Below, one piece after another: positions 18,834 to 32,002 of a stretch of DNA of 32,873 nucleotides. The notes under the pieces were generated by a model. It saw only the letters and a list, made by a program, of their open reading frames with translations. It did not search any database and was not told the origin of the DNA. Source of the stretch: Candidatus Rifleibacteriota bacterium (GTDB lineage Bacteria > Muiribacteriota > Ozemobacteria > Ozemobacterales > Ozemobacteraceae); the NCBI GenBank assembly GCA_012517355.1, contig JAAYVD010000002.1, positions 1 to 32,873 of the forward strand, written 5' to 3'. Position 1 is the stretch's first letter. Each line of letters begins with the position of its first letter. Both the position numbers and the translations under genes were made by a program.

Positions 18834-20098
18834 CCCCCGCCGCCCCGCGCCCCGGTCGCGCCCCCGCCAGCCCCGGCGGGATGGCCCCTTGGCGATGCGC
18901 GAAACTGGCGTTTCGCCCCGCCATCCATGGCGGCAAAGGGGCCCTTCCGACATCGTGTCGGTTGGCCCTGCTGCTGGCCGCCGCCGTCGGACTGGCCCTG
19001 GCCCCGGCGCGCCCTCTTGCCGCGCAGACGGCCTTCCCCACCATCGCCGAACCCCAGACCTCCGTCCGCGACATCCTGACCGGGCCGCAGAACCGGCCCC
19101 GGGCCGACACCTATTACCTGCTCGGCCTCGCCGCGGCGCGCAAGAACAACCACGCCGAAGCCCTGCGCCAGATCGCGATCGGCCTGCGCCTCGAACCGGG
19201 CCACCTCCGCCTGCTCGGCCTGCGCGCGGCGATCTGGGCCCGCCAGGGCCACACCCAGGAGGCCATCGCCGAGTTCCGCCGGCTGGTGCGCCTGTTCCCC
19301 GACGACGATTACGTCCGGCAGTCGCTGCAGGAACTCGAGCGCCCCCTGCGCCCCCGGTTCGCCCCGGTGACCTCGGCCCTGCCCACCCCGCCCCGGCGCG
19401 ACACCCCCGTGGCGCCCGTCAGCACGGCGGCACCCGCCTCCCCGAAACGCGTCCTGGAATCGGGGTATTTCGAGGAGATGAAGCAGAAGCAGCGCTGCTA
19501 CTTCCAGATGGCGGCCATCCGACGGGCCCAGGCCGCACTCGCGGCCGCCGACCCCGCCAAGAAGGACGCCTTCGATCTGCAGGCCCTGGTTGACACCGGC
19601 CACCTCAGTGCCCCGCCAGTCTGCCCGGGCGGCGGCACCTACTCCTGGAACGGGGCCCCCGTCTGCTCCAAGCACGGGGATTTCGCCACCGCCGAGGCCG
19701 AGGTCAACACCGTCTTCAACGACTTCAACCGCGGCATGCAGGCCAAGATCGGCCGCAACTACGGCGCCGCCCTCGAGGCGTTCGACCAGGTCTGCGCGGT
19801 CTACCCGCAGTGGTCGGAAGCCCACTACCAGCGCGGCGAGACCCTGTTCCGCCTCGGCGAGGACCGCGGAGCCATCGAGGGCATCCGGCGCGCCCTCCAG
19901 TGCGACCCCGGCAATCTCGACGCCAAGCTGCTGCTGGCCAACCTCCAGTTCAAGGTCGGCCACAAGGAGTCGGCCCTGCAGCTGCTCGACGAGGTGGCCA
20001 CGGAACAGTCCGGCACCGTCTACGGCCTGTCCGCCCGCAGCCTGGCCAAGTCCATCCGCAGCGGCCGCAACTACTACCAGGTCTTCCCCCCCAACTGA
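18830..20098 (+). CDS. Exported TPR protein with zinc-ribbon-like motif; N-terminal 83-bp element
   Basis: 422 residues if it starts at 18830 (ATGA overlap with the previous gene). Residues 18-45 are encoded by an 83-bp dispersed element (APWRCAKLAFRPAIHGGKG...). Directly after it comes a signal-peptide core (LALLLAAAVGLALAPARPLAAQ), so the element separates the coupled start from the export signal. Non-ATG starts just before the core (TTG near 18961) cannot be excluded, but they lack a ribosome site. The mature protein has TPR-like units at both ends (DTYYLLGLAAARKNNHAEAL; SEAHYQRGETLFRLGEDRGA) and in between CPGGGTYSWNGAPVCSKHG, a C...C-x2-H motif like those seen near the C-termini of some type IV pilin-like proteins. 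Role unknown; probably periplasmic or lipid-free outer-surface. Confidence 0.72.
   Translation: MTPAAPRPGRAPASPGGMAPWRCAKLAFRPAIHGGKGALPTSCRLALLLAAAVGLALAPARPLAAQTAFPTIAEPQTSVRDILTGPQNRPRADTYYLLGLAAARKNNHAEALRQIAIGLRLEPGHLRLLGLRAAIWARQGHTQEAIAEFRRLVRLFPDDDYVRQSLQELERPLRPRFAPVTSALPTPPRRDTPVAPVSTAAPASPKRVLESGYFEEMKQKQRCYFQMAAIRRAQAALAAADPAKKDAFDLQALVDTGHLSAPPVCPGGGTYSWNGAPVCSKHGDFATAEAEVNTVFNDFNRGMQAKIGRNYGAALEAFDQVCAVYPQWSEAHYQRGETLFRLGEDRGAIEGIRRALQCDPGNLDAKLLLANLQFKVGHKESALQLLDEVATEQSGTVYGLSARSLAKSIRSGRNYYQVFPPN
18883..18965 (+). repeat. 83-bp three-hairpin element, copy R1
   Basis: Best-preserved copy. It folds as GCGAAACTGGCGTTTCGC, then CCGCCATCCATGGCGG, then CCGACATCGTGTCGG; an outer stem pairs GGCCCCTT (first 8 nt) with AAGGGGCC (positions 54-61). 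It lies in-frame in the 5' end of the exported TPR gene. About 83 percent identical by eye to R2, without gaps. Confidence 0.85.
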
Positions 20099-20105
20099 GC
20101 CGCCG

Positions 20106-20972
20106 ATGAAACGCCCCGTCCATCGCCTCGGCATCCTGTGCCACCCGAACCGGCCGTCGGTGCCGCCCCTGCTGCGCCGCATCGTGCGTTGGGCCGGGGC
20201 CAACGGCCTCGACCTCCGGCTCGACCGCGAGGAGGCGGCCTCGGTCGGCCACCCCGAACTGGGCGTGCCCCGCCCCGACATGGGCGAACTGGTCGACCTC
20301 ATCGTTGTGCTCGGCGGCGATGGTTCCATCCTCGAGTGCGTGCGCCAGTTCGCCGCCGAAGGCGTCCCGGTCGCCGGCATCAACCTCGGCCACCTGGGGT
20401 TTCTGACCCTCGGCGACGCCGCCAAGGCCCTGTCCATCCTCGAACGGCTGCGCGCCGGCCGGTTCCGCATCGAGAACCGGATGATGCTGCAAGCGGTGGT
20501 CCGGCGGCGCGGCAAACCGGTGTTCCGCGGCATCGCCCTCAACGACGCGGTCGTCACCAAGGGCCCCATCCTGCGCGTCATCGACCTCCACCTGTCGATC
20601 TCGGGTACCGCGGTCGCCACCTACCACGGCGACGGGGTCATCTTCTCGACCCCCACCGGCTCGACCGCCTATTCCCTGTCGGCCGGCGGGCCCATCGTCC
20701 CGCCCTGGGTCAACGCCCTCATCGTCACCCCCCTCAATTCCCACACCCTGGCCACCCGCCCCGTCATCACCTCCGACCAGGAGGTCCTCCTGGCCGACCT
20801 GTCCTGCACCCATTCGGAGGTCAACCTGGTGCTCGACGGGCAACAGGGTTTCCAACTCCTCGACGGCGACGGGATCGAGATCTCCCGGGCCCAGGAGATC
20901 GGCCGGATCGTCGTTTTCCGCCCCCATACCTTCTTCCAGGTCCTGCGCAAGAAGATGAAATGGGGAAAGTGA
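20106..20972 (+). CDS. nadK: NAD kinase
   Basis: 288 residues, typical of bacterial NAD kinases. It phosphorylates NAD to NADP in the cytoplasm using ATP or polyphosphate. The catalytic GGDGS motif is at residues 70-74 (VVLGGDGSILECV); NLGHLGFL, the substrate-binding LNDAVV, and the conserved TPTGSTAYSLSAGGPIV follow in order, then HTLATRPVI. The ATG is 7 nt after the stop of the exported TPR gene with no clear Shine-Dalgarno, so it probably depends on coupling. Its place among exported proteins is probably operon chance rather than function. Confidence 0.95.
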   Translation: MKRPVHRLGILCHPNRPSVPPLLRRIVRWAGANGLDLRLDREEAASVGHPELGVPRPDMGELVDLIVVLGGDGSILECVRQFAAEGVPVAGINLGHLGFLTLGDAAKALSILERLRAGRFRIENRMMLQAVVRRRGKPVFRGIALNDAVVTKGPILRVIDLHLSISGTAVATYHGDGVIFSTPTGSTAYSLSAGGPIVPPWVNALIVTPLNSHTLATRPVITSDQEVLLADLSCTHSEVNLVLDGQQGFQLLDGDGIEISRAQEIGRIVVFRPHTFFQVLRKKMKWGK

Positions 20973-21000
20973 CCCCATACCCCCCCCAAAGGATGCACCC

Positions 21001-21207
21001 ATGAAGATCACCTGGCACGTGGACAAGATGAAATGCGACGGCTGCGTGGAAGCCATCGCCCAGGCGTTGCTGCTCGTCGACGGCCTCGCCGACGTCACCG
21101 TCGACCTCGCCTCGAAGTCGGTGGCCTTCACCGCCGACACCCAGCAGACCGTCGATGTCGCCCGCAAAGCCATGCAGGGCGCGGGGTTCCCCGTCCGGGG
21201 GGACTGA
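21001..21207 (+). CDS. Heavy-metal-associated (HMA) domain protein, CopZ-like
   Basis: 68 residues, a single ferredoxin-like HMA domain. MKCDGC carries the metal-binding C12-x2-C15; the pattern DVTVDLASKSVAFT and the C-terminal AGFPV match copper/mercury chaperones. AAAGGAT lies 7 nt before the ATG. It delivers or buffers Cu(I) or a similar soft metal. It sits just before dsbD, a combination that fits metal handling together with thiol reduction in the periplasm. Confidence 0.88.
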   Translation: MKITWHVDKMKCDGCVEAIAQALLLVDGLADVTVDLASKSVAFTADTQQTVDVARKAMQGAGFPVRGD

Positions 21208-21282
21208 CCCCGCGCCTTTTTCCCCATCCCCCACCCCGGCCCCCGGGGCTTTCCACCCACCCGCTTTCCGGAGGAACTCCCG

Positions 21283-23277
21283 ATGCGACGCTTCTTCCTG
21301 CCCCGTTTCCCGTTGCTGGCCCTGCTGGCCTCCCTGGCGTTCGCCCTGACGGGCCCGACGGTTCCCGCCGCCCGCGGCGGCTGGCTGACCGACCCGGAAA
21401 CCGCCGGACCGTTCTCCTTCAGGCTCAGCCCGGTCGTCGAGGAGGGAGCCGGCCGCCTGGTGGGAACCCTCACCATCGCGGTGGCCCCGGACCACCACCT
21501 GTACCGGGAACGGACGAAGCTCGAGGCGGAGGCCGGCTCGCTCACCGTGGCCTGGCCGCCGGCCAAGGTCAAGGTCGATCCCTTCGAGAACAAGCCGGTC
21601 GAGATCTTCGATGCCGGAGAGCACCAGGTCGGGTTCAGCCTGACCGGTTGGCCGGTGGCGGCCTCGCCAGCCCTCACCCTCGATTGGCACGGTTGTTCCT
21701 CCCAGACCTGTTTCATGCCCGAGCGCAAAACCTTCCCGGTGGCCTGGCCTGCCGACCGGCCCACCGGAGCCCCGGCAGCGGATCCTGCCGCACCGGCGCG
21801 GGCCGCCCCCTCTTCTGAAACCAGGCCGGAGGGTCCGGCCGCCCCCCTGCCGGCCGCCGCGACGCCAGCCGGCCAGTCGAGCCAGGCCGCCCCGGCAGCG
21901 GCGGCGGCGATTCCCCCGACCGCCGCCGGGGAGGTGGGCCCCAGTGCCACGCCCGCACCTTCGAGGGGCGCCTCTGATGCCGGCGCGGTGGCCACTCCCG
22001 GCGGCACCTACGACTTCGGCCGGACCCTGCGCGAGCGGGGGCTGGCCTGGGCCCTGCTGGTGGCCTTCCTCGGCGGATTCCTGGTCAGCCTGACCCCCTG
22101 CGTCTACCCGATGATCCCCATCACCCTGTCGATCATCGGCGGCCGCCAGGAGAACACTTCGTTCGGCCGGGGGTTGGGCCTGTCGGTCACCTACGTCGCC
22201 GGCCTGTCGCTCACCTACGCCCTGCTGGGCCTCATCGTGGCCGTGTTCGGCGCCCAGGTCCGGGGCCTGTTGCAGGGGCCGACCTTCCAGTTGGGCATGG
22301 CCGTGATCTTCGTGTTGCTGGCCCTGTCGATGTTCGACCTGTTCCTGCTGCAGGTGCCCGACACGCTGCGGCAGCGGTTCGTGGGAGTCCGCTCCACCGG
22401 CCCCGGGGGCATCTTCCTGCTGGGGATGGTCTCCGGGCTGATGGCCTCCCCCTGCGTCGCCGCGCCCCTGGCCGGCATCCTGGCTTTCATCGCGGCCTCG
22501 GGCAGCCTGCTGCTGGGGTTCACCATGCTGCTCGCGTTCGCCTGGGGCATGGGCCTGATCCTGGTGCTGATCGGGGCCTTTTCCGGATCGCTGAACGCCC
22601 TGCCGCGGGCCGGCGACTGGATGGTCACGATCAAGGAATTCTACGGGTTCCTGCTGTTGGGAGCGGCCTTCTATTTCGCCCAACCGTTCATCGGGTCCCC
22701 CTGGGCGGGGTTGTTGACCGCCGCTCTGCTCGCTGCTTTTGCCGGCTTCCTGGGCCTGTTCCGGCCGGTGTCGGCCGAGGCCCGGCTCGGGGAACGGGTG
22801 TCGCGGTGCCTCGGCGTCGTCGCCCTGGCCGTGGCCTGCGCCTTCGCGGTCAGTTCGGCGGGCCAGTGGGGCCTGTGTCTCCAGCCCCCCGAGCCGGCGG
22901 CCGCGGCGGCCCCGGCCGCCGGCCTGCCCTTCTGGCATGACCGCCTGGCCGACGGCCTGGCGCAGGCGGCCCGGGAGGGGAAACCGGTCTTCGTCGATTT
23001 CCGCGCCGACTGGTGCACCATCTGCCTGGAACTGGAGAAGACCGTCTTTCCCCACCCCGATGTGGCTGGTACTTTGCAGAAATATGTGTTGGTCAAGATC
23101 GATGCCACCGACCCCGATGAGGCGACCACGGAGGTTCTCCGGCAGTTCGTCGTGGTCGGCCTGCCCACCCTGGTCGTGCTCGGGGCGGACGGCCGCGAGC
23201 GGCCCGGGCTGCGGGTGACCGGCGACGTCGCGGTGGCCGACCTGACCCGCCTGTTGCGCGAAGGACTGCGACCGTGA
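21283..23277 (+). CDS. dsbD: Thiol:disulfide interchange protein DsbD
   Basis: 664 residues. It passes electrons from cytoplasmic thioredoxin across the inner membrane to periplasmic partners. Domains in order: signal peptide (1-31); N-terminal DsbD domain about 38-155 with HGCSSQTCF (C138 and C143); an Ala/Pro-rich linker about 160-245; a CcdA-like transmembrane domain from about 253 with TPCVYPM (C273) and a second SPCVAAPLAG Cys about 120 residues later; C-terminal thioredoxin domain with DWCTIC (C578, C581) and the cis-Pro in VGLPTLVV. All three redox pairs are present. GGAGGAAC precedes the ATG by a few nt. The C-terminal site is CTIC rather than the CVAC of E. coli. It overlaps the next gene by 4 nt (GTGA). 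Confidence 0.93.
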   Translation: MRRFFLPRFPLLALLASLAFALTGPTVPAARGGWLTDPETAGPFSFRLSPVVEEGAGRLVGTLTIAVAPDHHLYRERTKLEAEAGSLTVAWPPAKVKVDPFENKPVEIFDAGEHQVGFSLTGWPVAASPALTLDWHGCSSQTCFMPERKTFPVAWPADRPTGAPAADPAAPARAAPSSETRPEGPAAPLPAAATPAGQSSQAAPAAAAAIPPTAAGEVGPSATPAPSRGASDAGAVATPGGTYDFGRTLRERGLAWALLVAFLGGFLVSLTPCVYPMIPITLSIIGGRQENTSFGRGLGLSVTYVAGLSLTYALLGLIVAVFGAQVRGLLQGPTFQLGMAVIFVLLALSMFDLFLLQVPDTLRQRFVGVRSTGPGGIFLLGMVSGLMASPCVAAPLAGILAFIAASGSLLLGFTMLLAFAWGMGLILVLIGAFSGSLNALPRAGDWMVTIKEFYGFLLLGAAFYFAQPFIGSPWAGLLTAALLAAFAGFLGLFRPVSAEARLGERVSRCLGVVALAVACAFAVSSAGQWGLCLQPPEPAAAAAPAAGLPFWHDRLADGLAQAAREGKPVFVDFRADWCTICLELEKTVFPHPDVAGTLQKYVLVKIDATDPDEATTEVLRQFVVVGLPTLVVLGADGRERPGLRVTGDVAVADLTRLLREGLRP

Positions 23278-24656
23278 GGGCCCGGGGTTTCGTGGGGGGC
23301 CGCCGCGCCGCCGCCGTCCCCACCGGCCTCACCGTCGCCGCCGGCCTGTGCTGCCTGGCGCTCTGCCTCCCCCTGACCGCGACGGCCGGAAACCAGGCGG
23401 CCCCCCAGCCCACCCTGACGGCTTCGAACCGGCGATCCCCCGCCATGGCTCCGACGGACGGCGCCCCGACACCCCCTGCCACCACGCCGACCTCCAATCC
23501 GGCGGCCGGGAACCGGGTGGATCCGGCCGTGGCGGCGGCCCCGACGGTCGGGCCGCACCTGGCCCCCGACCCCGCCCTGGACGCGCAGTTCCGCGCCATG
23601 CCCGGCTTTCTCGGCGGCGACGGGTGTTTCACCGTTCCGCTCCCCGGCCACCGCACCCTGCTCCTGTTCGGGGACACCTTCGTGGCCAGCGGTTCCTCGC
23701 CCGACCGCCGCCAAGCGGCCTTCGTCCACAACACCGCCGCCCTCGCCGAAGGAGAAGTGGAGGCGGGCACCCGGATCCGGTTCCTCGCCGGGCGGCTCCC
23801 CTTCCTGCCCTCGCCCGCCACCGACACCTGGCTGTGGCCCCTCGACGGCATCTGCCGCGACGGGCGCCTCTCGTTGTTCGCCACCGAAATCCGCCAGGTC
23901 GCCGACGACCCGTTCGGCTTCCGGGAGGTCGGCAACCATCTGTTCGTCATCGACAATCCGGCCGACCCCGTCGGGGAGTGGCGGTTCACCCGGCACCGCA
24001 TCCCGTGGGGGCGGTTCGGGCGGAAGGCCTCGCTGACCTGGGGGGGAAGCCTGGTCGCGCACGACGGGCAGACCCTGATCTACGGGGTCCATCAGCGCGA
24101 GGACGGGCGGAAATCGCTGGTCCTGGCCCGCGCCCCCGGCCGTCTCGAAGATTTCCGTTCCTGGAGCTTCTTCCGACGGACGGCCCCCTGGCGTTGCGCG
24201 AAACCGGCGTTGCCCGCCGCCATCCGTGGCGGCAAGGGGGTATGTCCGACATCGTGCCGGTCGGATGGGTGGCAGCCCGCCCCCCACGCCCCGTCCCCCC
24301 TCGTGTCACCCATCGCCAACGAGTTCACCGTGTATGCCGGGCCCGCGCCCGACGGCGGGCCCGACCGGTTCTTCCTCGTGGCTTCGGGCGAGGGTGGCCT
24401 GTCCTGGGACATCATCCGCCACGAGGCCGGCGGCCCTGACTTCGCCCGGCCGGTCACCCGGGTCCTGCACCGGTTCCCGGCCGCAGCCTTCCCCCAGGGG
24501 GTGTTCTGCTACTCCGCCAAGGCCGTCCGGCGCGGGGACGGACGCCCCCCCGACCGGGTGGTGCATTTCACCAACGCCACCACCGCCGACCCGCTGTTGC
24601 TGGACAATACGTGGTATTGGCCGGAGTTCCACCGGCTGCCCGGTCACGGCGAATGA
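23274..24656 (+). CDS. Exported DUF4185-like beta-propeller protein interrupted in-frame by an 83-bp element
   Basis: 460 residues from a GTG start that overlaps the dsbD stop (GTGA). An N-terminal signal peptide (VAAGLCCLALCLPLTATAG) and a Pro/Thr-rich linker precede a propeller-like region. Family-like features are GCFTVPLPGHRTLLLFGDTF, NTAAL, TWLWPLDGICRDGRL, SLTWGGSLVAHDGQTLIYG and NEFTVY; the FGDTF block is typical of DUF4185/glycosidase-like propellers. Residues about 304-331 (APWRCAKPALPAAIRGGKG...) are encoded by element R2 and sit where a Trp-rich strand is expected: SFFRR before, DGWQ after. The frame is kept. Function unknown; perhaps glycan binding or hydrolysis. Confidence 0.72.
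   Translation: MRARGFVGGRRAAAVPTGLTVAAGLCCLALCLPLTATAGNQAAPQPTLTASNRRSPAMAPTDGAPTPPATTPTSNPAAGNRVDPAVAAAPTVGPHLAPDPALDAQFRAMPGFLGGDGCFTVPLPGHRTLLLFGDTFVASGSSPDRRQAAFVHNTAALAEGEVEAGTRIRFLAGRLPFLPSPATDTWLWPLDGICRDGRLSLFATEIRQVADDPFGFREVGNHLFVIDNPADPVGEWRFTRHRIPWGRFGRKASLTWGGSLVAHDGQTLIYGVHQREDGRKSLVLARAPGRLEDFRSWSFFRRTAPWRCAKPALPAAIRGGKGVCPTSCRSDGWQPAPHAPSPLVSPIANEFTVYAGPAPDGGPDRFFLVASGEGGLSWDIIRHEAGGPDFARPVTRVLHRFPAAAFPQGVFCYSAKAVRRGDGRPPDRVVHFTNATTADPLLLDNTWYWPEFHRLPGHGE
24182..24264 (+). repeat. 83-bp three-hairpin element, copy R2
   Basis: Aligns without gaps to R1. The middle hairpin CCGCCATCCGTGGCGG is perfect. In the outer stem position 7 changes T to C while position 55 changes A to G, which keeps the pair. 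In-frame in the propeller gene, same reading frame as R1. Confidence 0.85.
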
Positions 24657-24676
24657 ACCCCGCCGCCGAGGCTCCT

Positions 24677-24745
24677 GCATGTTGACAGGCATTCCAGGAG
24701 GGCAGGGGAAACGGGAAATGGGGGGGGCGGGCGAAGGATGTCAGG
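24677..24745 (+). repeat. G-rich dispersed repeat, copy C
   Basis: GCATGTTGACAGGCATTCC then CAGGGGAAACGGGAAATG and GGCGGGCGAAGG; it matches the first two thirds of copies A (5846) and B (6316, reverse). It fills much of the gap 24657-24816 between the propeller gene and the next start; nothing else is visible there. Confidence 0.5.
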
Positions 24746-24816
24746 GCATCCGGGCGGGGAAAAGATGTTCGGGGTTTGAACGGAAGGGCAATGAACCCAA
24801 GCCTCCGCCGCCGGCC

Positions 24817-25965
24817 ATGAGGCGAATTGGCCGACCCACCTTGTACTACTTGGTCATTCTTGTCATGGCCGGCGGACTCTTGACCCTCGGCCTGGATGCC
24901 GCCCCCCCGCCACCCGGAGATTGGCCGGCCCCGGCTTCGCTGACCGGCGATTCTCTGTCGCCGGCTTCTGTTCCTGGCAACTTCGAGGCGGCCTGCCCAC
25001 TGGCTCCGATCTCCAGGACCGAGGACTCCGGGGCAGGCGACCGTTTGGCACCAGCCTGCGGAACCGCATCCTTCACACCGTCCGGCAGTCCGCCGGCCGC
25101 CACCGGGACCGCTCTCTTTGGGCCGAGGCGACTCCTTCCGCACGCATCAAAGACCACGCTCTCCGAGCCGGCCTCCCTCTTGCCGACCGCCAACGGGACC
25201 GCTCTCTCCGAGCCGGCCTCCCTCTTGCCGGCAGCCACCGGGACCGGCCTCTCCGAGCCGGGACAACTCTTGCCGCACGCATCAAGTACCGCTTTCTCAC
25301 AGCCGGCATCTTTCATGCCGGCCGCCACGGGAACCGCTCTCTCCCAGGCTGGGTGCTTCTTGCCGCCCACCTCGGGAACCGCCCTCCCCGAGCCGGCGCG
25401 CCTCTTGCCGTCGGCCTTGGAGACCCCGGTCTCTGAGCCGATCCTCACCCTGACGCTGGCCTCCTGTCCCGTGAGCCAGGCCCTCGTCATGGCCACCGCA
25501 GGCCGTCCCGGCGGCTTCCTGCTTCCGGCCCGCGAGCCCGAACCGTTGGTGTCGCTCACCCTGGCGCGCCGGCCGGTCCGGGACGTCATGCGCGAGATCG
25601 CCGAACTGGCCGGGTTCGGCTGCGTGGCCGAGGGCGACTTTTTCATCCTGGCCCGGCCGCAGACCGCCGCCTTCTACCGCCGGTTCGCCGACCTCGACCT
25701 GCCGCCGGGCAGCCCGGCCATCAGCCTCGCTGCCGACCGGGCCGACCTGGGCGACCTGCTGGCCACGATCGCCCGCCGCCTTCCCATCGACATCGTCTGC
25801 CATCCCGACCTCGCCGCCACCCTGACCGTCCAGGTCCGGGATGTCCCCTGGCGGGTCCTGTTCCACGGGCTGGCGGCGGCCGCCGAAGCCGATTGCCGGT
25901 TCGCCACGCCCACCGTCTTCCTCGCCCCGCGCGGCCGCCTCGGTTCCTCGTGGCGGGGGAACTGA
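24817..25965 (+). CDS. Exported STN/secretin-N-like protein with nine 15-residue repeats
   Basis: 382 residues from the ATG at 24817, which begins a signal anchor (LYYLVILVMAGGLLTLGLDA). Residues 82-216 are nine tandem 15-residue units, consensus GTALSEPASLLPAAT, rich in Ala, Pro, Ser and Leu. The C-terminal part has two STN-like halves: LVSLTLARRPVRDVMREIAE (about 244-263) and LGDLLATIARRLPIDIVCHP with VTVQVRDVPWRVLFHGLA-type spacing near 340-360, as in the N-terminal domains of secretins, PilQ and TonB-dependent receptors. It has no secretin pore domain. It could be a periplasmic partner of a secretion or pilus system, but no such genes are nearby. No good ribosome site is visible. Confidence 0.65.
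   Translation: MRRIGRPTLYYLVILVMAGGLLTLGLDAAPPPPGDWPAPASLTGDSLSPASVPGNFEAACPLAPISRTEDSGAGDRLAPACGTASFTPSGSPPAATGTALFGPRRLLPHASKTTLSEPASLLPTANGTALSEPASLLPAATGTGLSEPGQLLPHASSTAFSQPASFMPAATGTALSQAGCFLPPTSGTALPEPARLLPSALETPVSEPILTLTLASCPVSQALVMATAGRPGGFLLPAREPEPLVSLTLARRPVRDVMREIAELAGFGCVAEGDFFILARPQTAAFYRRFADLDLPPGSPAISLAADRADLGDLLATIARRLPIDIVCHPDLAATLTVQVRDVPWRVLFHGLAAAAEADCRFATPTVFLAPRGRLGSSWRGN
25060..25464 (+). repeat. 45-bp coding tandem repeat, nine units
   Basis: Nine consecutive 45-nt units, each encoding one 15-residue repeat; units 3 and 4 (SEPASLLP) are most alike and the last is diverged. The repeats are strictly in-frame, so they expanded as coding sequence. Not a CRISPR: there are no constant repeats with unique spacers. 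Confidence 0.85.
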
Positions 25966-25974
25966 CCCATCAGA

Positions 25975-26190
25975 TCACCACCCGGCCTGCCCGTCACGCT
26001 TCCGCCGGCCAGGAAAACCGGGCGGCCGAGTCACCGGCCAGCCGGCGCGACGCCCTGGCGGGTGCCCGTGAACCGGACCGGCGAGGTCACCACCCGGCCG
26101 GCCCTTCACGATTCCGCGGACCGGGGAAACCGGGCGGCCAAATCACTGACTCCCCGCCCGTCAGGATTCCGCGGGCCGGGGAAACCGGCC
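25975..26190. repeat. 60-bp direct repeat between convergent genes
   Basis: A unit starting TCACCACCCGGCC at 25975-26034 recurs at 26087-26146 (51 of 60 identical by eye), with a partial third unit at about 26152-26190 (TTCCGCGGGCCGGGGAAACC). All of this lies in the 232-bp gap between the STN-like gene (+) and the Nif3-like gene (-). CCGGCC/GGCCGG pairs within the units could form hairpins, possibly acting as a two-way terminator, but no T-runs are present. Confidence 0.7.
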
Positions 26191-26197
26191 CTCGCCG

Positions 26198-26965
26198 TCA
26201 CAACCCGGTCGGCACGTCGATGAAGCGGTGGACGAGGCCGAACTTCGCGGCCAGGTGATCGCCGAGAGCCTTCACGCCAAAGGTCTCGGTGGCGTAGTGC
26301 CCGAACGCGAACAGGTGGACCCGGCGGTCGCGGCACAGGGCCACCGCCTGGTGGATCGCCTCCCCGGTCAGCACCGCTTGCAGTTCCCCGCTCTCGACCA
26401 GCTGGTCGGTGACGGTGTCCCATCCCCCGCCCGACACGATGCCCACCGCCGAGATGCGGGCGGGGCCGTGATCGAGATGGACGAGCAGGGGGCCGATGGC
26501 CTTCTCGCAACGCTGCCGGAAGGCAGCCACGGTCAGAGGCCGGGGAAACCGGCCGACGTAGCCCACCTTCTGGCCCAGGAAATCTCCAAACGGGGCCCCC
26601 AGTCTCGCCCCGATCGCCTGCGCCAGGCGGGCGTTGTTGCCCAGCTCGGGATGCCCGTCCAGTGGCAGGTGCAGGGCATACAGCGACAGGTCGGCCGCGG
26701 CCAGGGCGGTGACCGTCGCGCGGGCGAACCGGTCGATCCGCCGCCACTCCCGGCCTTTCCAGAACAGGCCGTGGTGCACGATGGCGAACTGGCCGCCGGC
26801 CGCCGCCGCCTGCCGGAAGAACTCGCCGGTGGCATCGACCCCGGTGACCACCGTCCTCACCCGCTCCGCCCCCTCGAACTGGAGGCCGTTGTACGAGACG
26901 TCCGGCGTGGTCGGCACGTTGAACAGCTCGTCGAGATACTTCACCAGGTCCTGCCGTTTGATCAT
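26198..26965 (-). CDS. Nif3-like dinuclear metal centre protein
   Basis: 255 residues. The family blocks are clear: SYNGLQFEG (metal-region DNGLQ-like motif, here YNGLQ), VVTGVDAT, AIVHHGLFWKG (HH ligand pair), ALHLPLDGHPELGNNARLA and, near the C-terminus, LTGEAIHQ and FGHYATETFGVKAL with the conserved His/Glu. Nif3/YbgI proteins form hexameric toroids with two metals per subunit; some act as GTP cyclohydrolase-like enzymes, most have no proven function. AAAGGAAC lies about 7 nt before the ATG. Its ATG overlaps the stop of the upstream GH114-like gene (ATGA), so translation is coupled. Confidence 0.92.
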   Translation of the reverse strand: MIKRQDLVKYLDELFNVPTTPDVSYNGLQFEGAERVRTVVTGVDATGEFFRQAAAAGGQFAIVHHGLFWKGREWRRIDRFARATVTALAAADLSLYALHLPLDGHPELGNNARLAQAIGARLGAPFGDFLGQKVGYVGRFPRPLTVAAFRQRCEKAIGPLLVHLDHGPARISAVGIVSGGGWDTVTDQLVESGELQAVLTGEAIHQAVALCRDRRVHLFAFGHYATETFGVKALGDHLAAKFGLVHRFIDVPTGL

Positions 26966-27939
26966 GGTCGTTCCTTTCTGCGTATGGTCAGGGGCAGGGA
27001 AGCGACCGCCACGTCGATCCCCGCCGCCGCCGCCTCCCGGTCCAGCCGGGCCACCCGCCCGGCGGTTTCCGCCTGCTCGGCGGCCAGCACCCGCCAGCGG
27101 CGGCCCCCGGTTCCGACCGACACGACGTCGGAGCTGCCCCATGGCCGCCCTGGATGGCGGCGCGAAACCTTCGTCGCGCGCCCCACCAGGGGGTCGGCCG
27201 CCCCGGCGAGGCGGCGGGCCCGGTCCCACGGGCGCATCGTCCGTCCTCCGGGCCCGTACCACAAGCCTTCCAGGGCCACCCCGTCCACCAGGCCGGCCAG
27301 GGCAGGATCCGCCGCCAGCGCGGGATCACCCAGCAGGATGATCACCCCACCGGTCCGCAGCGCCCGGAAATCCCGCGCCAGCGTGGTCAGCAGGGCCACC
27401 ATGGCCTGGGGTCCAACCGCGTGGTCGGTGATCCACCGGTGCCCGTCGGTCCCGGCCAGGAACAGGCCGGCCGCGCCCTGGTGGGCCACCTCGCGCACGC
27501 GCCGCCGCAGGGCTTCCCGCCAGGGTTCCAGATAGAACCGGGCGCGCAGCGTGCCGGGCCGCCAGTGGCCCCCCGCCACGTTCTTCGGCAGGGCCCCCGT
27601 GACGAGGGGGCCATCGGCCGGCTCCGACACGCGCAGGAACAGGTCCTTCTCGGGCAACCCCGCCAGGCAGGCCCGGCCCGCTTCCGGCCGCGACACGTCG
27701 ATCCAGGCCAGGGGCAGCGCCCCCCGCCCGGCCGCCTCGCCGATGGCCGCCCGCCCCCAGTCGTCGGGGTCGATGACCAGGATCTCACCTGCGCCAAACC
27801 GCTCCGGCCGCCCGGGTTCGGGCAGGAACTGCCACCCCGCCGCCGCCAGGCTTTGAATGCCAAAAATGACAATGATGTACAACATGTACTTTCGCCTGGC
27901 CAAATGTCTGTTTGCGCAGCCCGCTGTTCCTTTTTCCAT
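26962..27939 (-). CDS. GH114/TM1410-like predicted exported glycosidase, with in-frame 83-bp element
   Basis: 325 residues from the ATG at 27939 (AAGGAAC upstream); a start at 27885 (MLYIIVIFGIQSLAAAG) is also possible and would give a more typical signal peptide. The mature part resembles the TIM-barrel family of endo-alpha-1,4-polygalactosaminidase (GH114, TM1410-like): GEILVIDPDDWGRAA, LPLAWIDVSRPEAG, AGLFLAGTDGH, VDGVALEGLWYGP and VARLDREAAAAGIDVAVA. Residues about 249-276 (DPLVGRATKVSRRHPGRPW...) come from element R3, placed before a predicted strand (RRWRVLAAEQAE), without frame loss. Substrate unproven; exopolysaccharide degradation is a reasonable guess. Confidence 0.65.
   Translation of the reverse strand: MEKGTAGCANRHLARRKYMLYIIVIFGIQSLAAAGWQFLPEPGRPERFGAGEILVIDPDDWGRAAIGEAAGRGALPLAWIDVSRPEAGRACLAGLPEKDLFLRVSEPADGPLVTGALPKNVAGGHWRPGTLRARFYLEPWREALRRRVREVAHQGAAGLFLAGTDGHRWITDHAVGPQAMVALLTTLARDFRALRTGGVIILLGDPALAADPALAGLVDGVALEGLWYGPGGRTMRPWDRARRLAGAADPLVGRATKVSRRHPGRPWGSSDVVSVGTGGRRWRVLAAEQAETAGRVARLDREAAAAGIDVAVASLPLTIRRKERP
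27113..27195 (-). repeat. 83-bp three-hairpin element, copy R3
   Basis: On the - strand it aligns gap-free with R1 from GACCCCCTGG to GTCGGTCGG. The middle and third hairpins (CCGCCATCCAGGGCGG, CCGACGTCGTGTCGG) are kept; the first is degraded. It is in the sense direction of the GH114-like gene, but read in a different frame from R1 and R2. Confidence 0.8.
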
Positions 27940-28138
27940 CACGTCCGTTCCTTCCTGGGGTCGAGCCCACCCCGCCCTTCCCGCCCGGTTTGCCTCGGGT
28001 CGTCCATTCCCTGGGCGGCCGACAGGTGGACCGGCAGGGCCCGTTGCCCCTGCCCCACGGAGTTGCACGGAGGCGGAGGGACCGGAGAGCGGGCGGCGTC
28101 GACGCCCCAGCCTGTCCCACCATCTCTCCTGGAGGAGA

Positions 28139-28603
28139 TCACAGGGTGAAATGCTTGATGTACACCAGGCAGCGGGAACCCTCCTGTACGATGTGGATTT
28201 CCATGTAGCCCTCCCGATATCTCCCGGTCTTCGAGAAAACCGTCGTTTCCGTGGCGATCGACCACCAGGGGCACCTAGCGTCGGCGAAGCCCTTCGGAAA
28301 GTCCGGGCAAGCCTCGACTTCCCCGGCCCGCTTGATGATCTCCCGCTTTCCTTCGTCATTGACGGCAAACCGGGCGAAAACGATCGGATCGATGGGGGGG
28401 AAATAGGCATACGTCAGGCCGACCGCCCCGGAAGGAACAGGGAACCCGGTGTCGTCCTGAAACTCGTGAATGATCCGCGCGGAGTGTTCCTCCCCGGACA
28501 ACTCGATCTTGCCGGATTTTGGATCCGCCCCGGCCAGGAGGGCTCCGCACAGAAGCAGGAGCGGCAGGAAGGGCGTCAACAAGGTTCCGAGCCAGGTGTT
28601 CAT
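28139..28603 (-). CDS. Small secreted protein of unknown function
   Basis: 154 residues. The ATG overlaps the stop of the hexose-phosphate mutase gene by 4 nt (ATGA). Hydrophobic N-terminus (LLTPFLPLLLLCGALLAGAD) looks like a signal peptide; it has a Cys but not a clean lipobox. The mature part has a pair of Cys (EACPDFPKGFADARCPWW) and several aromatic-rich strands, ending in CLVYIKHFTL. No family recognised. The 199-bp gap after it (27940-28138) shows no gene. Confidence 0.65.
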   Translation of the reverse strand: MNTWLGTLLTPFLPLLLLCGALLAGADPKSGKIELSGEEHSARIIHEFQDDTGFPVPSGAVGLTYAYFPPIDPIVFARFAVNDEGKREIIKRAGEVEACPDFPKGFADARCPWWSIATETTVFSKTGRYREGYMEIHIVQEGSRCLVYIKHFTL

Positions 28604-30024
28604 GCCGATTTCCCCCCTTCCCTGGCCGCTGCCAGGCCTTCTTCGAACACGGTCCGGTAGCTCTGCAACTGCTCGGTCGTCTCCGCCTCGAAGCGGGAAA
28701 CCAGCACCGGCTGGGTGGTCGAGGCCCGCACCATCCCCCAGCCATGGGCGAACTCGGCGCGCACCCCATCGAGGGTGTTCAGGCTGTCGATGCGGGGCTC
28801 CGCCCCCGCCTGCCGGTGCGCCTCCAACCGCGCCCGCACCGTTTCGATGACGGCAGGCTTGTCCGCAGCCGGGCAGTCGGTACGGATCTCCGGGGTGACC
28901 TGAACCGCCGGCAGGTCGGCCAGGAAGTCGGACATCTTCCACGGACCCTTCCGCTTCGCCCGGTGCAGGACACCCGCCACCTGCAGGGCGGCATGGATCG
29001 CGTCGTCGTAGCCGAAGTGGTCTTCCCCCAGGAAGAAGTGCCCATTCATCTCACCGGCCAGCAGGGCGTGTTCCTCCCGCATCTTGTTCCGGATCAGGCT
29101 GTGGCCGGTCTTCCACATCACCGCCCGGCCGCCCGCCCTTGTCACTTCACGGAACAGCCGGGAGCTGCAGGTGACACCGCCGATGACGGCCGCCCCGCGA
29201 TGCCGCGACAGCAGATCCCGGGCCAGGATGATCATGACCTCGTCGCCGCCCAGCACCACGCCCCGTTCATCGACCACCCCCAACCGGCCGGCGTCGCCGC
29301 CGAACCCGAACCCGAGATCGGCTCCCGTGTCGGTGACCGCCCGCACCAGGTCCTGCAGGTTGCCCGGCAGGGTGGGATCGGGATGATGGTGGGGAAAGGC
29401 GCCGTCGGGCTCGCAGAACAGTTCGGTCACCTCGCAGCGCAGGTCGCGGAACAGCTGCGGGGCCAGCAGGCCAGCCGTGCCGTTCCCCGCGTCGATCACC
29501 ACCTTCAGATGCGGCCGGCCGACGCCCAGGTCGGCGTGCCGCTTCCGGTGGTATTCCTGGTAGGCGGCCACGATGTTGGAATGGTGCTTCTTCCAGCCGG
29601 CCCGGGGACGGAACCGCCCGGCCTCGACCAGCTGCCGGACCTCCTGGATCTGCCTGCCGTGCAGGCTGGTGCGGTCGTGACAGAGTTTGAACCCGTTGCA
29701 TTCACGCGGCAGGTGGCTGCCGGTGACCATCACCGCCCCGTCGACGGGCAGATGGAACAGGCTGAAGTAGACCAGCGGGGTCGGGCAGACTCCCAGGTCG
29801 AGGACCTCCACTCCCATGTCGCACAGGCCCTTCACCAGCCAGTCCGACAGGGACGGGCTGCTCGGCCGCACGTCCCGCCCCACGGCCAGCACCAGGTCCT
29901 GCTTCGCGCCCTGCTGCCGGATCCAGGTGACGAAGGCCCGGCCGATGTCCCCGACCAGCGCCGCCGACAGGTCCCGCTCGGCCACGCCGCGAATGTCGTA
30001 TTCCTTGAAGATGTCCGGAACCAT
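28600..30024 (-). CDS. Phosphomannomutase/phosphoglucomutase family protein with altered metal loop
   Basis: 474 residues, AlgC-like length. Expected reaction: interconversion of mannose- or glucose-1- and 6-phosphate for surface glycans. The phosphoserine loop is VTGSHLPRECNGFK with S103, where the usual motif is TGSHNPP. The metal loop is FGGDAGRLGVVD at 241-252, where relatives have FDGDGDR: the first and third Asp are Gly (positions 242 and 246) and only D244 remains. The sugar loop GEMNGHFFLGED and the phosphate-binding RASTTQPVLVSRFEAET are intact. Codons at the altered sites are GGC, one transition from GAC. It may be inactive, need a different ion mode, or have changed substrate. GGGAGCGG precedes the start. 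Confidence 0.85.
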   Translation of the reverse strand: MVPDIFKEYDIRGVAERDLSAALVGDIGRAFVTWIRQQGAKQDLVLAVGRDVRPSSPSLSDWLVKGLCDMGVEVLDLGVCPTPLVYFSLFHLPVDGAVMVTGSHLPRECNGFKLCHDRTSLHGRQIQEVRQLVEAGRFRPRAGWKKHHSNIVAAYQEYHRKRHADLGVGRPHLKVVIDAGNGTAGLLAPQLFRDLRCEVTELFCEPDGAFPHHHPDPTLPGNLQDLVRAVTDTGADLGFGFGGDAGRLGVVDERGVVLGGDEVMIILARDLLSRHRGAAVIGGVTCSSRLFREVTRAGGRAVMWKTGHSLIRNKMREEHALLAGEMNGHFFLGEDHFGYDDAIHAALQVAGVLHRAKRKGPWKMSDFLADLPAVQVTPEIRTDCPAADKPAVIETVRARLEAHRQAGAEPRIDSLNTLDGVRAEFAHGWGMVRASTTQPVLVSRFEAETTEQLQSYRTVFEEGLAAAREGGKSA

Positions 30025-30046
30025 GCTCCGCTCCCTTCCCCGCCCC

Positions 30047-32002
30047 CTACCGCTGGAGGCGCACCCGGTAGGTGTTGTCGATCTTGACCCGGACGTCGCT
30101 GCTGGTGGAGGTGAAATCGACCCCCATCCGGGTCTTGCGGTCCTCGCTCTGGTGGTCGAACACGATCTGGTCCGACAGCAGGTTGCCGAAATAGGCCCAG
30201 TCCAGGTTCACGCCCAGCGTCGGATCGACCGGGATCCACCCCTTGTCGCGGAAGAACACCTCGCACCAGGCATGCCCGATGTTGGTCTCCCCGCGCAGGA
30301 ACTCCTCCTTGACCAAAAACCCCGTCACCACGCGGGTGGGAATGCCCCGTTTCAGGCAGAGGGCGGCCAGCAGCCGCGCGAACTCGGTGCAGTCGCACGC
30401 GTCGGGATGCTCGAGCGCCCACTGCACCGACTGGTCCTCGAAGTTCTCCCGGTAGGACAAGCCCCGCCCCACGGCCAGGTAGGCATTCTGCAGGAAATTC
30501 CCGCTCTCGCGCGACAGCCGCCGGAAGACCTGGTCGAGCCGGCCGTCCTCCAGCGAGAGCTTGTCGTCGTTGCGCAGCCGGTCGAGATCCGGGGCGGAGG
30601 CGGGCAGGAACGGCCCCCGGGAGCCGAGCCAGGGCTTGACCGACAGCCGGTAGCGCACCCGCAGGGTCACCTGGTTCCCCGGCGGGGCGGGACATTCGAA
30701 CGAATGGCGGCCGTCGGCGTCGGGCCCCACCCCCTTCACCGCCGTGACCCGGCCCTGCGACTCGATCTCCGCCCCGAGCACCTGCACCGACTGGTGATGG
30801 GGCACCTCGGGGGGATACCGCAGCAGAAAATGGAAAGAGTGGATCTCGGACGGGTTGGCGATCTGCACGTTGACCTGGTCGGTGAACTCGTACTCGTGGG
30901 GGACCAGGCAGAACCGGATCCGCTCCAGGCTCGCCCGGTTGATGATGCCCGGGAACCGCCGCAGGGCGGCCTCGCACTCCTGGGCGAGCCCGTCGAGCGC
31001 CCCGCCGGCGAACCGCGCCCGGATGTAGGCATCGTGGGCAAACCCCTCCTGGTCCATGGCCATCGCCGACTGCAACGCCCGCTGCGCCGCCGGGAACTCC
31101 TTGCGTTCGGTCAGCAGGGTGCCCAGCACGTAGAGCGGATAGGGGTCGTCCCGCACCTCGGGAGCCTTCTCGCGCAGAATGGCCAGGGCCTGGTCGGGGA
31201 AGCCCGCCTTGTTCCAGGCGTTGGCCAGGGCCACCGCGAACCGGGTGTCGCCCGGCTGCCGCCGCGCCGCCTCGTCGAGGAAGGCGAGGGCCGCCCGCGG
31301 CTGCCCGAGCTTGTCGAGCATGGCCATGCCCGCGGCGTAGGGGGCCATGGCGTCGGTGGCATCCATGGCCATCACCTGCAGCGCGGTCCGGACGATCTCC
31401 CGCGGGACCCGGCCCTCCTTCCGCTGGGCCGCCAGCAGGTTCTTCCAGAGACCCACCTCGTGCGGGTTGATCCCGGTGGCCCGCTCGAACAGGGAGGCGG
31501 CCCGGGCGGCATCCCCCGCCTCGAGGGCGGCGACCCCCTGGTTGTTGAGGCGCACCGCCTCGTTGTGCTGGTCGACCCCGACCCGGCCGGGTATGACCGC
31601 CGGGAGGTCGGGCAGGGAAAGGACGGGCGTCGGGGTGGCCGCCGCGGCCGGCGGGAAGAACCTGTCGAGAAGCGGTTCCGCCCCCGCGGCCGGCCGCGGT
31701 GCGGCCCAGGACCACCACCCGGACAGGAGCAGGATCACCAACACGGCCCCCTGGCCTGGCGCGAAACGGGGGGATCGCGTCGCCGGATATGGCGGCAAGG
31801 GGGTCTGGCCGCCAGCGTGCGGTTCGGCCCCGTGGCGATGCGCGCAACGGGCGTCCCGCGCGGCCATCCGTGGCGGCAAAAGGGAAGCCCTTCCGACGTC
31901 GGGTCGGTCGGCCCCGTTGCCATGCGCAAAACGGGCGTTTCGCGCCGCCATCGGTGGCGACAAAGGGAAATGGCCGACGTCGTACCGGTCGGGTCGGGTC
32001 AT
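30047..32002 (-). CDS. Exported TPR/transglutaminase-like cysteine protease-fold protein with N-terminal repeat array
   Basis: 651 residues if it begins at 32002, where its ATG overlaps the upstream stop (ATGA). The C-terminal transglutaminase-like domain has the triad: C538 in DCTEFARLLAALCLKRGIPTR, H577 in IGHAWCEVFF, and Asp in PVDPTLG. A middle TPR region (about 170-330, for example VALEAGDAARAASLFERATG) precedes a beta-rich region before the catalytic domain. Residues 1-86 come from three antisense copies of the 83-bp element, followed by a hydrophobic signal segment (VLVILLLSGWWSWA). A GTG at about 31743 would skip the array and give a normal signal peptide, so the true start is uncertain. 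The hexose mutase gene follows by 22 nt. Confidence 0.8.
   Translation of the reverse strand: MTRPDRYDVGHFPLSPPMAARNARFAHGNGADRPDVGRASLLPPRMAARDARCAHRHGAEPHAGGQTPLPPYPATRSPRFAPGQGAVLVILLLSGWWSWAAPRPAAGAEPLLDRFFPPAAAATPTPVLSLPDLPAVIPGRVGVDQHNEAVRLNNQGVAALEAGDAARAASLFERATGINPHEVGLWKNLLAAQRKEGRVPREIVRTALQVMAMDATDAMAPYAAGMAMLDKLGQPRAALAFLDEAARRQPGDTRFAVALANAWNKAGFPDQALAILREKAPEVRDDPYPLYVLGTLLTERKEFPAAQRALQSAMAMDQEGFAHDAYIRARFAGGALDGLAQECEAALRRFPGIINRASLERIRFCLVPHEYEFTDQVNVQIANPSEIHSFHFLLRYPPEVPHHQSVQVLGAEIESQGRVTAVKGVGPDADGRHSFECPAPPGNQVTLRVRYRLSVKPWLGSRGPFLPASAPDLDRLRNDDKLSLEDGRLDQVFRRLSRESGNFLQNAYLAVGRGLSYRENFEDQSVQWALEHPDACDCTEFARLLAALCLKRGIPTRVVTGFLVKEEFLRGETNIGHAWCEVFFRDKGWIPVDPTLGVNLDWAYFGNLLSDQIVFDHQSEDRKTRMGVDFTSTSSDVRVKIDNTYRVRLQR
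31745..31827 (+). repeat. 83-bp element, copy R4 (tandem array)
   Basis: Same length as R1, gap-free. The outer stem CCCCCT/AGGGGG keeps the R2-type pair at positions 7 and 55. The first hairpin is rebuilt as CGCGA...TCGCG and the middle is CGCC...GGCG. Antisense to the transglutaminase gene. Confidence 0.75.
31826..31911 (+). repeat. 86-bp element, copy R5 (tandem array)
   Basis: Three nt longer than the other copies, inserted after AAAAGGG. It keeps GCCATCCGTGGC and CCGAC...GTCGG hairpins. Shares its first GG with the end of R4. Confidence 0.75.
31910..31992 (+). repeat. 83-bp element, copy R6 (tandem array)
   Basis: Gap-free match to R1: AAAACGGGCGTTTCGCG, GCCGCCATCGGTGGCGAC and CCGAC...GTCGG. 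It abuts the coupled start codon of the transglutaminase gene at 32002. Confidence 0.78.

Follow-up and report, generated by a model that had tools for sequence, protein, structure and literature searches.

MIRU, BOX, ERIC and MITE-like repeats are small and dispersed, sometimes tandem, and lie between and occasionally inside genes (see also PMC10969869). Rickettsia palindromic elements (RPEs) are ~150 bp long, and nearly half of them lie in open reading frames (ORFs), where some sit in-frame in genes unrelated to one another and add a peptide to the translated product (PMC10969869). Repetitive extragenic palindromes (REPs) span 20-65 nt and carry a GT[AG]G foot (PMC6006769, PMC3733652), and in IS200/IS605 elements, which bear hairpins and cause no duplication, the left end is preceded by a target tetranucleotide and the right end terminates in an equivalent one (PMC6006769). 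Here we describe a hairpin-bearing repeat with six copies (R1 to R6) in one stretch of DNA from a Candidatus Rifleibacteriota bacterium. This stretch of 32,873 nucleotides, taken at its full length and called the window below, is contig C101 of the source genome G000, a metagenome-assembled genome of 7.11 Mb in 184 contigs, which we compared with two congeners, G001 (of the same genus) and G002. With a probability of roughly 0.6, we consider the repeat to be a family of non-autonomous miniature mobile elements that would be mobilized as a folded single strand or circle, most likely by an HUH-like route.

Results

An independent repeat search recovered all six window copies, which then aligned nearly without gaps, so the coordinates and lengths (83 bp, with one copy of 86 bp) given in a first-pass annotation, made from the letters of the window alone, were right. 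The sequence-model scores of these matches ranged from 38 to 133 bits, whereas locally shuffled sequence reached about -56 at best, which excludes chance. The annotation had not recognized the repeat as a described family, and we found neither an Rfam match at E values up to 1 nor a paper in the open literature on such a repeat in the phylum Riflebacteria; a tRNA finder detected no tRNA in the element loci.

The annotation had also named many copies, in a search of the source genome and relatives, as support for its reading. Searching with R1 at the DNA level gave 61 matches. A covariance model trained on 30 copies, for which all 150 of 150 scored candidates were matches, identified 81 copies at E ≤0.001 within 0.79 Mb of G000, and 1.57 Mb of G001 contained none. 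When the 3' end was counted with a 21-nt pattern allowing ≤2 mismatches, 330 sites were present genome-wide in G000, 20 in G002, none in G001 and no more than one per genome in a further 34 Riflebacteria, while the same pattern written backward as a control had no sites in G000, G001 or G002. Approximately 24 copies at E ≤0.001 were located on the largest sampled contig stretch (220 kb of C34), and extrapolation from this stretch would give G000 a total of ~700-800 recognizable copies, ranging from perfect to decayed; some other sampled stretches were picked for holding copies, such that a density derived from them is biased upward. Identical 83-bp copies were found in different contexts. Thus, many copies exist outside the window, and the family is restricted to the source species and one congener, G002.

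The consensus unit of the main sub-type, type A, is 81 bp long (GGCCCCTTTGCGATGCGCGAAAC(G/T)GGCGTTTCGCGCCGCCATCCGTGGCGGCAAAGGGGCACTTCCGACATCGTGTCGGTC). When single-stranded, this unit folds into a 10-bp stem around two hairpins, of 9 bp and 5 bp; a further hairpin of 6 bp leads to the GGTC end. The three perfect hairpins previously described for R1 are therefore present, but the description missed the enclosing outer stem, which makes a three-way junction on folding. The DNA fold of a near-consensus copy had a z-score of -4.7. When 76 distinct copies were aligned by sequence only and without gaps, standard pairs occupied 93% of pair cells compared to 38-46% when the partner was slid, Watson-Crick double changes numbered 27 where shuffles averaged 10.9 and never exceeded 20, and divergence was 6.5% at paired but 15.7% at unpaired positions. 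Covariation was weak in the first 30, young copies, and older copies were needed for the signal. A model-based alignment that included more divergent copies agreed on the conservation of pairing, although alignments of this type are biased toward structure. Taken together, these data indicate that pairing within the element is conserved via compensatory changes. RNAalifold additionally showed that the 5' arm of the last hairpin, CCGAC, is also able to pair with the terminal GTCGG across the junction, a pairing that, speculatively, might act as a guide.

A conserved fold of this strength is what one would expect if the element were a functional structured RNA or DNA site (a terminator, mRNA stabilizer or domain organizer) that is selected by the host and spread by duplication. 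On the written strand, one-sided changes give G-U more often than A-C (71 versus 49 in the 76-copy alignment, 111 versus 73 in the model-based alignment), and 73% of loci lie between genes, as described below; both are also consistent with a site of this kind. Nevertheless, the element is absent in one close congener and near-absent in the other, and it was not found near the orthologous genes of the other genomes; copies occur at all stages of decay, next to a specific target motif, and inserted into genes in both orientations; and Rfam holds no match. We therefore regard host function of this type as very unlikely, and the element is most simply selfish.

Since the annotation had proposed a comparison with orthologues, we asked what the congeners carry at the sites of the window copies. 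The region is collinear with contig C36 of G001 and contig C213 of G002. R2 (24182..24264, + strand) is an in-frame insertion of 27 codons in the ORF at 23274-24656, and its site is empty in both congeners, the difference being exactly 81 bp in each case. At the protein level, the window product (SFFRRTAPWRC...TSCRSDGWQPAP) differs from that of the G001 gene (WTFWQRSRGWQPAP) by a 27-residue insertion in a conserved stretch. At a second, intergenic locus (L060), G001 lacks the element between flanks that are 76-83% identical, and at R1, R3 and R4-R6 the congeners have unrelated variable sequence instead, in apparently disordered N-terminal tails or linkers. No element was present at the orthologous position in the congeners in any site examined. 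An alignment that appeared to span a shared copy at another locus (L097) was rejected because it had aligned unrelated GC-rich sequences. The proposed empty sites thus exist, as a clean 81-bp gain at R2 relative to both congeners and as an element-free locus in G001.

We assessed the location of the copies relative to genes with a codon-usage gene caller, which classified 86% of the 0.79 Mb of G000 as coding. Of 44 element loci with scores of ≥50, 32 (73%) were intergenic, 11 lay within called genes and one at the edge; among random positions, 16% were intergenic (p ~1e-16 for the intergenic excess of the element). Genic copies occurred in both orientations and in several frames, with the reading frame kept, such that in-frame insertion into genes, as first described, applies to R2 and to other genic copies as well. 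The statement that all copies lie inside coding sequences is defensible locally, in that R2 interrupts conserved coding sequence, R3 occupies a linker of variable sequence, and R1 and R4-R6 lie in variable N-terminal tails, but it does not extend to the genome, where most loci are intergenic. For R1 and R4-R6, the gene caller starts the host genes downstream of the element. In both cases, the element lies between a stop/start overlap and a signal or transmembrane segment, and the frame is open throughout. Given this open frame, and with the overlap preceding the element retained by G001 and G002 alike, R1 and R4-R6 are likely, though not proven, to be coding. The openness of the element in all six frames was rejected as an adaptation, as the same openness was seen in 19% of sequences after dinucleotide shuffling and in 15-22% of 81-mers drawn from the genome.

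These locations also bear on whether the repeat is simply a protein motif or linker repeat of the ordinary kind, shared by four genes. If the gene calls are correct, at least R2 and R3 are translated. Against this, copies are found on both strands, in different frames and mostly between genes, they conserve pairing at the nucleic acid level, and the orthologues in the congeners lack them. The annotation had named a normal protein motif confined to these four loci, or conservation at the same place in distant orthologues, as observations that would speak against a dispersed element; the copy counts and locations contradict the former, none of the orthologous sites examined in the two congeners held the element, and we give a protein motif almost no credence.

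The left flanks of the element were also distinctive. Among 64 single or first-in-array copies, 55 had GG at positions -4 and -3 compared to a background of 12% (p ~1e-40), with the flank columns lying outside the detection matrix. The commonest left tetranucleotides were GGTC, GGAC, GGAG and GGAT, placing insertion directly 3' of GGNN and mostly of GGWC. While the left motif is variable, the right end is constantly GGTC, which indicates a target preference rather than a target duplication. Same-strand neighbors within 60-110 bp of each other were spaced exactly 81 bp apart in 16 of 16 cases. We further identified a sub-type, type B, of 60 bp with one enclosed hairpin and a 3' module in common with type A; it forms its own 60-bp arrays and is also joined end to end with type A in mixed arrays. 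Arrays were present at several contig ends (C30, C64 and C168), so the true arrays may be longer. Based on copy number, fold conservation, empty sites and target, the repeat is dispersed, hairpin-forming and apparently mobile, as the annotation had suspected: it is mobile in the evolutionary sense, with target choice, structure conservation and arrays.

One type A copy (L090:17808-17904) has an intact 5' module and a 3' hairpin replaced by other sequence, possibly by truncation or module exchange. It lies beside another repeat, likewise structured and ~130 bp long, whose hairpins are perfect (GCGAGGGGAACGCGTCAGCGTTCCCCTCGC, GAAGGGGCAAAGCCCCTTC) and which occurs at L090:17613-17753 and L090:5264-5403 and matches more than 10 contigs of G002 on both strands.

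An enzyme that could mobilize the element was sought in the same genomes. Because the arrangement of target and end, the hairpins and the absence of duplication correspond to the IS200/IS605 mode, an HUH/Y1-like nuclease, possibly lost or unrecognized, is the most likely type, a proposal that we make by analogy and with modest confidence. G000 has one intact Y1 (IS200-like/TIRYT) transposase gene, its sole intact candidate enzyme, on contig C109 (L112:1171-1962). G002 has a single-copy, intact Y1 gene with its own flanking repeats on contig C123 (L195:1162-1965), whose protein is 61% identical to that of G000, and no Y1 gene was found in G001. Phage, plasmid and viral-contig carriers were rejected for want of matches.

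Several observations weigh against a non-autonomous, HUH-mobilized family. No autonomous parent with the same ends was found, split copies having been sought in ~11% of the genome. G000 lacks a Y2 (IS91) transposase, has a single fragment only of IS110, and contains no serine recombinase above the Pfam family cut-off (one 40-aa fragment), with none in G002. Its Y1 gene is flanked by a repeat of its own (GAGTTCCGGGGACATGATACCGAA) that is unrelated to the element and was seen once in 0.79 Mb. A base-exact empty site is available at one locus only, most other flanks being too diverged or rebuilt, and R4 has no GG target on its left. RAYT, IS91, IS110 and serine recombinase enzymes were each rejected as mobilizers because their ends do not match or because no intact gene is present in the element-bearing genomes.

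The Y1 gene on C109 nonetheless raises the question of whether the element is a REP/REPIN-type repeat mobilized by this single, RAYT-like gene, which is present in the two repeat-bearing genomes and was not found in the repeat-free G001. This correlation rests on three genomes. Besides being unrelated to the element, the gene's flanks are similar to the terminal repeats, GGGG[AT][CG]A[CG], of subclass 2.1/TIRYT enzymes, in whose vicinity no REP-like sequences have been identified (PMC6006769). The covariance model detected no element near the Y1 gene in G000 or G002, and the GTAG or GTGG expected at the 5' hairpin foot of a REP is absent in the element consensus (from 30 and from 76 copies). 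Mobilization by this particular gene is thus quite unlikely.

A site-specific recombinase (an IS607-like serine enzyme or similar) could instead move a double-stranded circle, with the GGTC-GG joint recombining with GGWCGG. The GG at both ends, the net gain of 81 bp and the lack of any longer duplication fit a crossover at a 2-bp core, and tandem integration at the element's own end would follow naturally. This mechanism needs no strongly conserved hairpins, however, and the lack of a serine recombinase above the cut-off in G000, and of any in G002, counts against it as well, leaving it unlikely. As a refinement of single-strand mobility, the repeat may be modular, with an enzyme of unrecognized type recognizing the 3' hairpin and GGTC while 5' modules (the 60-bp single-hairpin and the 81-bp three-way-junction form) are swapped, and with self-targeting yielding in-phase arrays; we put this version forward only tentatively and consider it doubtful.

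In the window, R1 (18883..18965, + strand), a type A copy comprising the 81-bp unit and the shared GG, scored 133 bits and adjoins the left target GGAT (18879..18882, +). It lies in the N-terminal tail of a gene whose ATG at 18830 overlaps the stop of the preceding gene and whose product is, by Pfam, a tetratricopeptide repeat (TPR) protein. R2 adjoins the left target GGAC (24178..24181, +). R3 (27113..27195, - strand), with the left flank GGCC, occupies a variable linker near the C-terminus of a minus-strand gene (26962-27885 or longer); neither the R2 nor the R3 host protein had a Pfam match. The tandem triplet consists of the degenerate R4 (31745..31827, +), R5 (31826..31911, +), an 86-bp copy of an 84-bp-unit variant (GGGAAGCCCTTCC), and R6 (31910..31992, +). 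The triplet occupies the N-terminal tail region of a minus-strand gene for a TPR/transglutaminase-core protein, the start ATG of which (at 32002) overlaps the stop of the preceding gene.

Two other repetitive regions were observed in the window. Three degenerate GC-rich units (around GATTCCGCGGRCCGGGGAAACCGG), spaced by 112 and 55 bp, lie at 25950-26188 and adjoin the end of the ORF at 25315-25965, and a degenerate repeat of ~25 residues (ASLLPxATGTxLSEP) at 25000-25440 forms a variable linker in the ORF at 24226-25965.

Discussion

In the folded-strand mechanism that we favor, the element would move as a folded single strand or a circle, and a trans-acting enzyme would join both ends, the 3' one with GGTC and the 5' one, at GGWC targets. 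Since the element itself finishes in GGTC, a copy already in place could then serve as a target, such that new copies would insert beside old ones and arrays would grow. Genic copies would presumably survive in variable parts of proteins, where 81 (or 60 or 84) bp preserve the frame. With this family, the Riflebacteria have a clearly delimited miniature element that was amplified recently and whose empty sites occur naturally in close relatives. Its left target is identical to its right end, its arrays are exact and its units come in two lengths, which together yield a specific, testable model of target choice and array growth, and elements of this kind seed 27-residue insertions in protein tails and linkers.

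The likeness to RPEs drawn in the first-pass annotation holds as an analogy, in that in-frame insertion does occur, but not in its extent, since 11 of 44 loci lie in genes. Like RPEs, the element is small, palindromic, lineage-specific and present in many copies, some of them (R2 and others) in-frame within genes. By description it is set apart from them by its 81- or 60-bp length, its three-way junction and hairpin, its GGWC target, its exact arrays and its intergenic share of 73%.

From MIRU, BOX, ERIC and other MITE-like repeats, as generally described, the element differs in sequence, fold, target and host phylum.

The element also resembles REPs and REPINs with their TnpA-REP (RAYT) enzymes in being hairpin-bearing, high-copy, mainly intergenic and non-autonomous, in a genome with a single-copy Y1 gene. 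Unlike them, it is longer and multi-branched, has a defined left target and forms head-to-tail arrays, and the flanks of the Y1 gene do not match it. With derivatives of IS200/IS605 it shares conserved subterminal hairpins, a left target tetranucleotide, an equivalent right end and the lack of a target duplication, whereas its left and right motifs are alike (GGWC and GGTC), which would explain the arrays, and neither a TnpA-IS200 with matching ends nor guide tetranucleotides were found. The element is therefore best read as analogous to, but not a member of, the RPE or REP families, and among known systems it comes closest to RPEs, REPs and MITE-like elements of the single-strand type.

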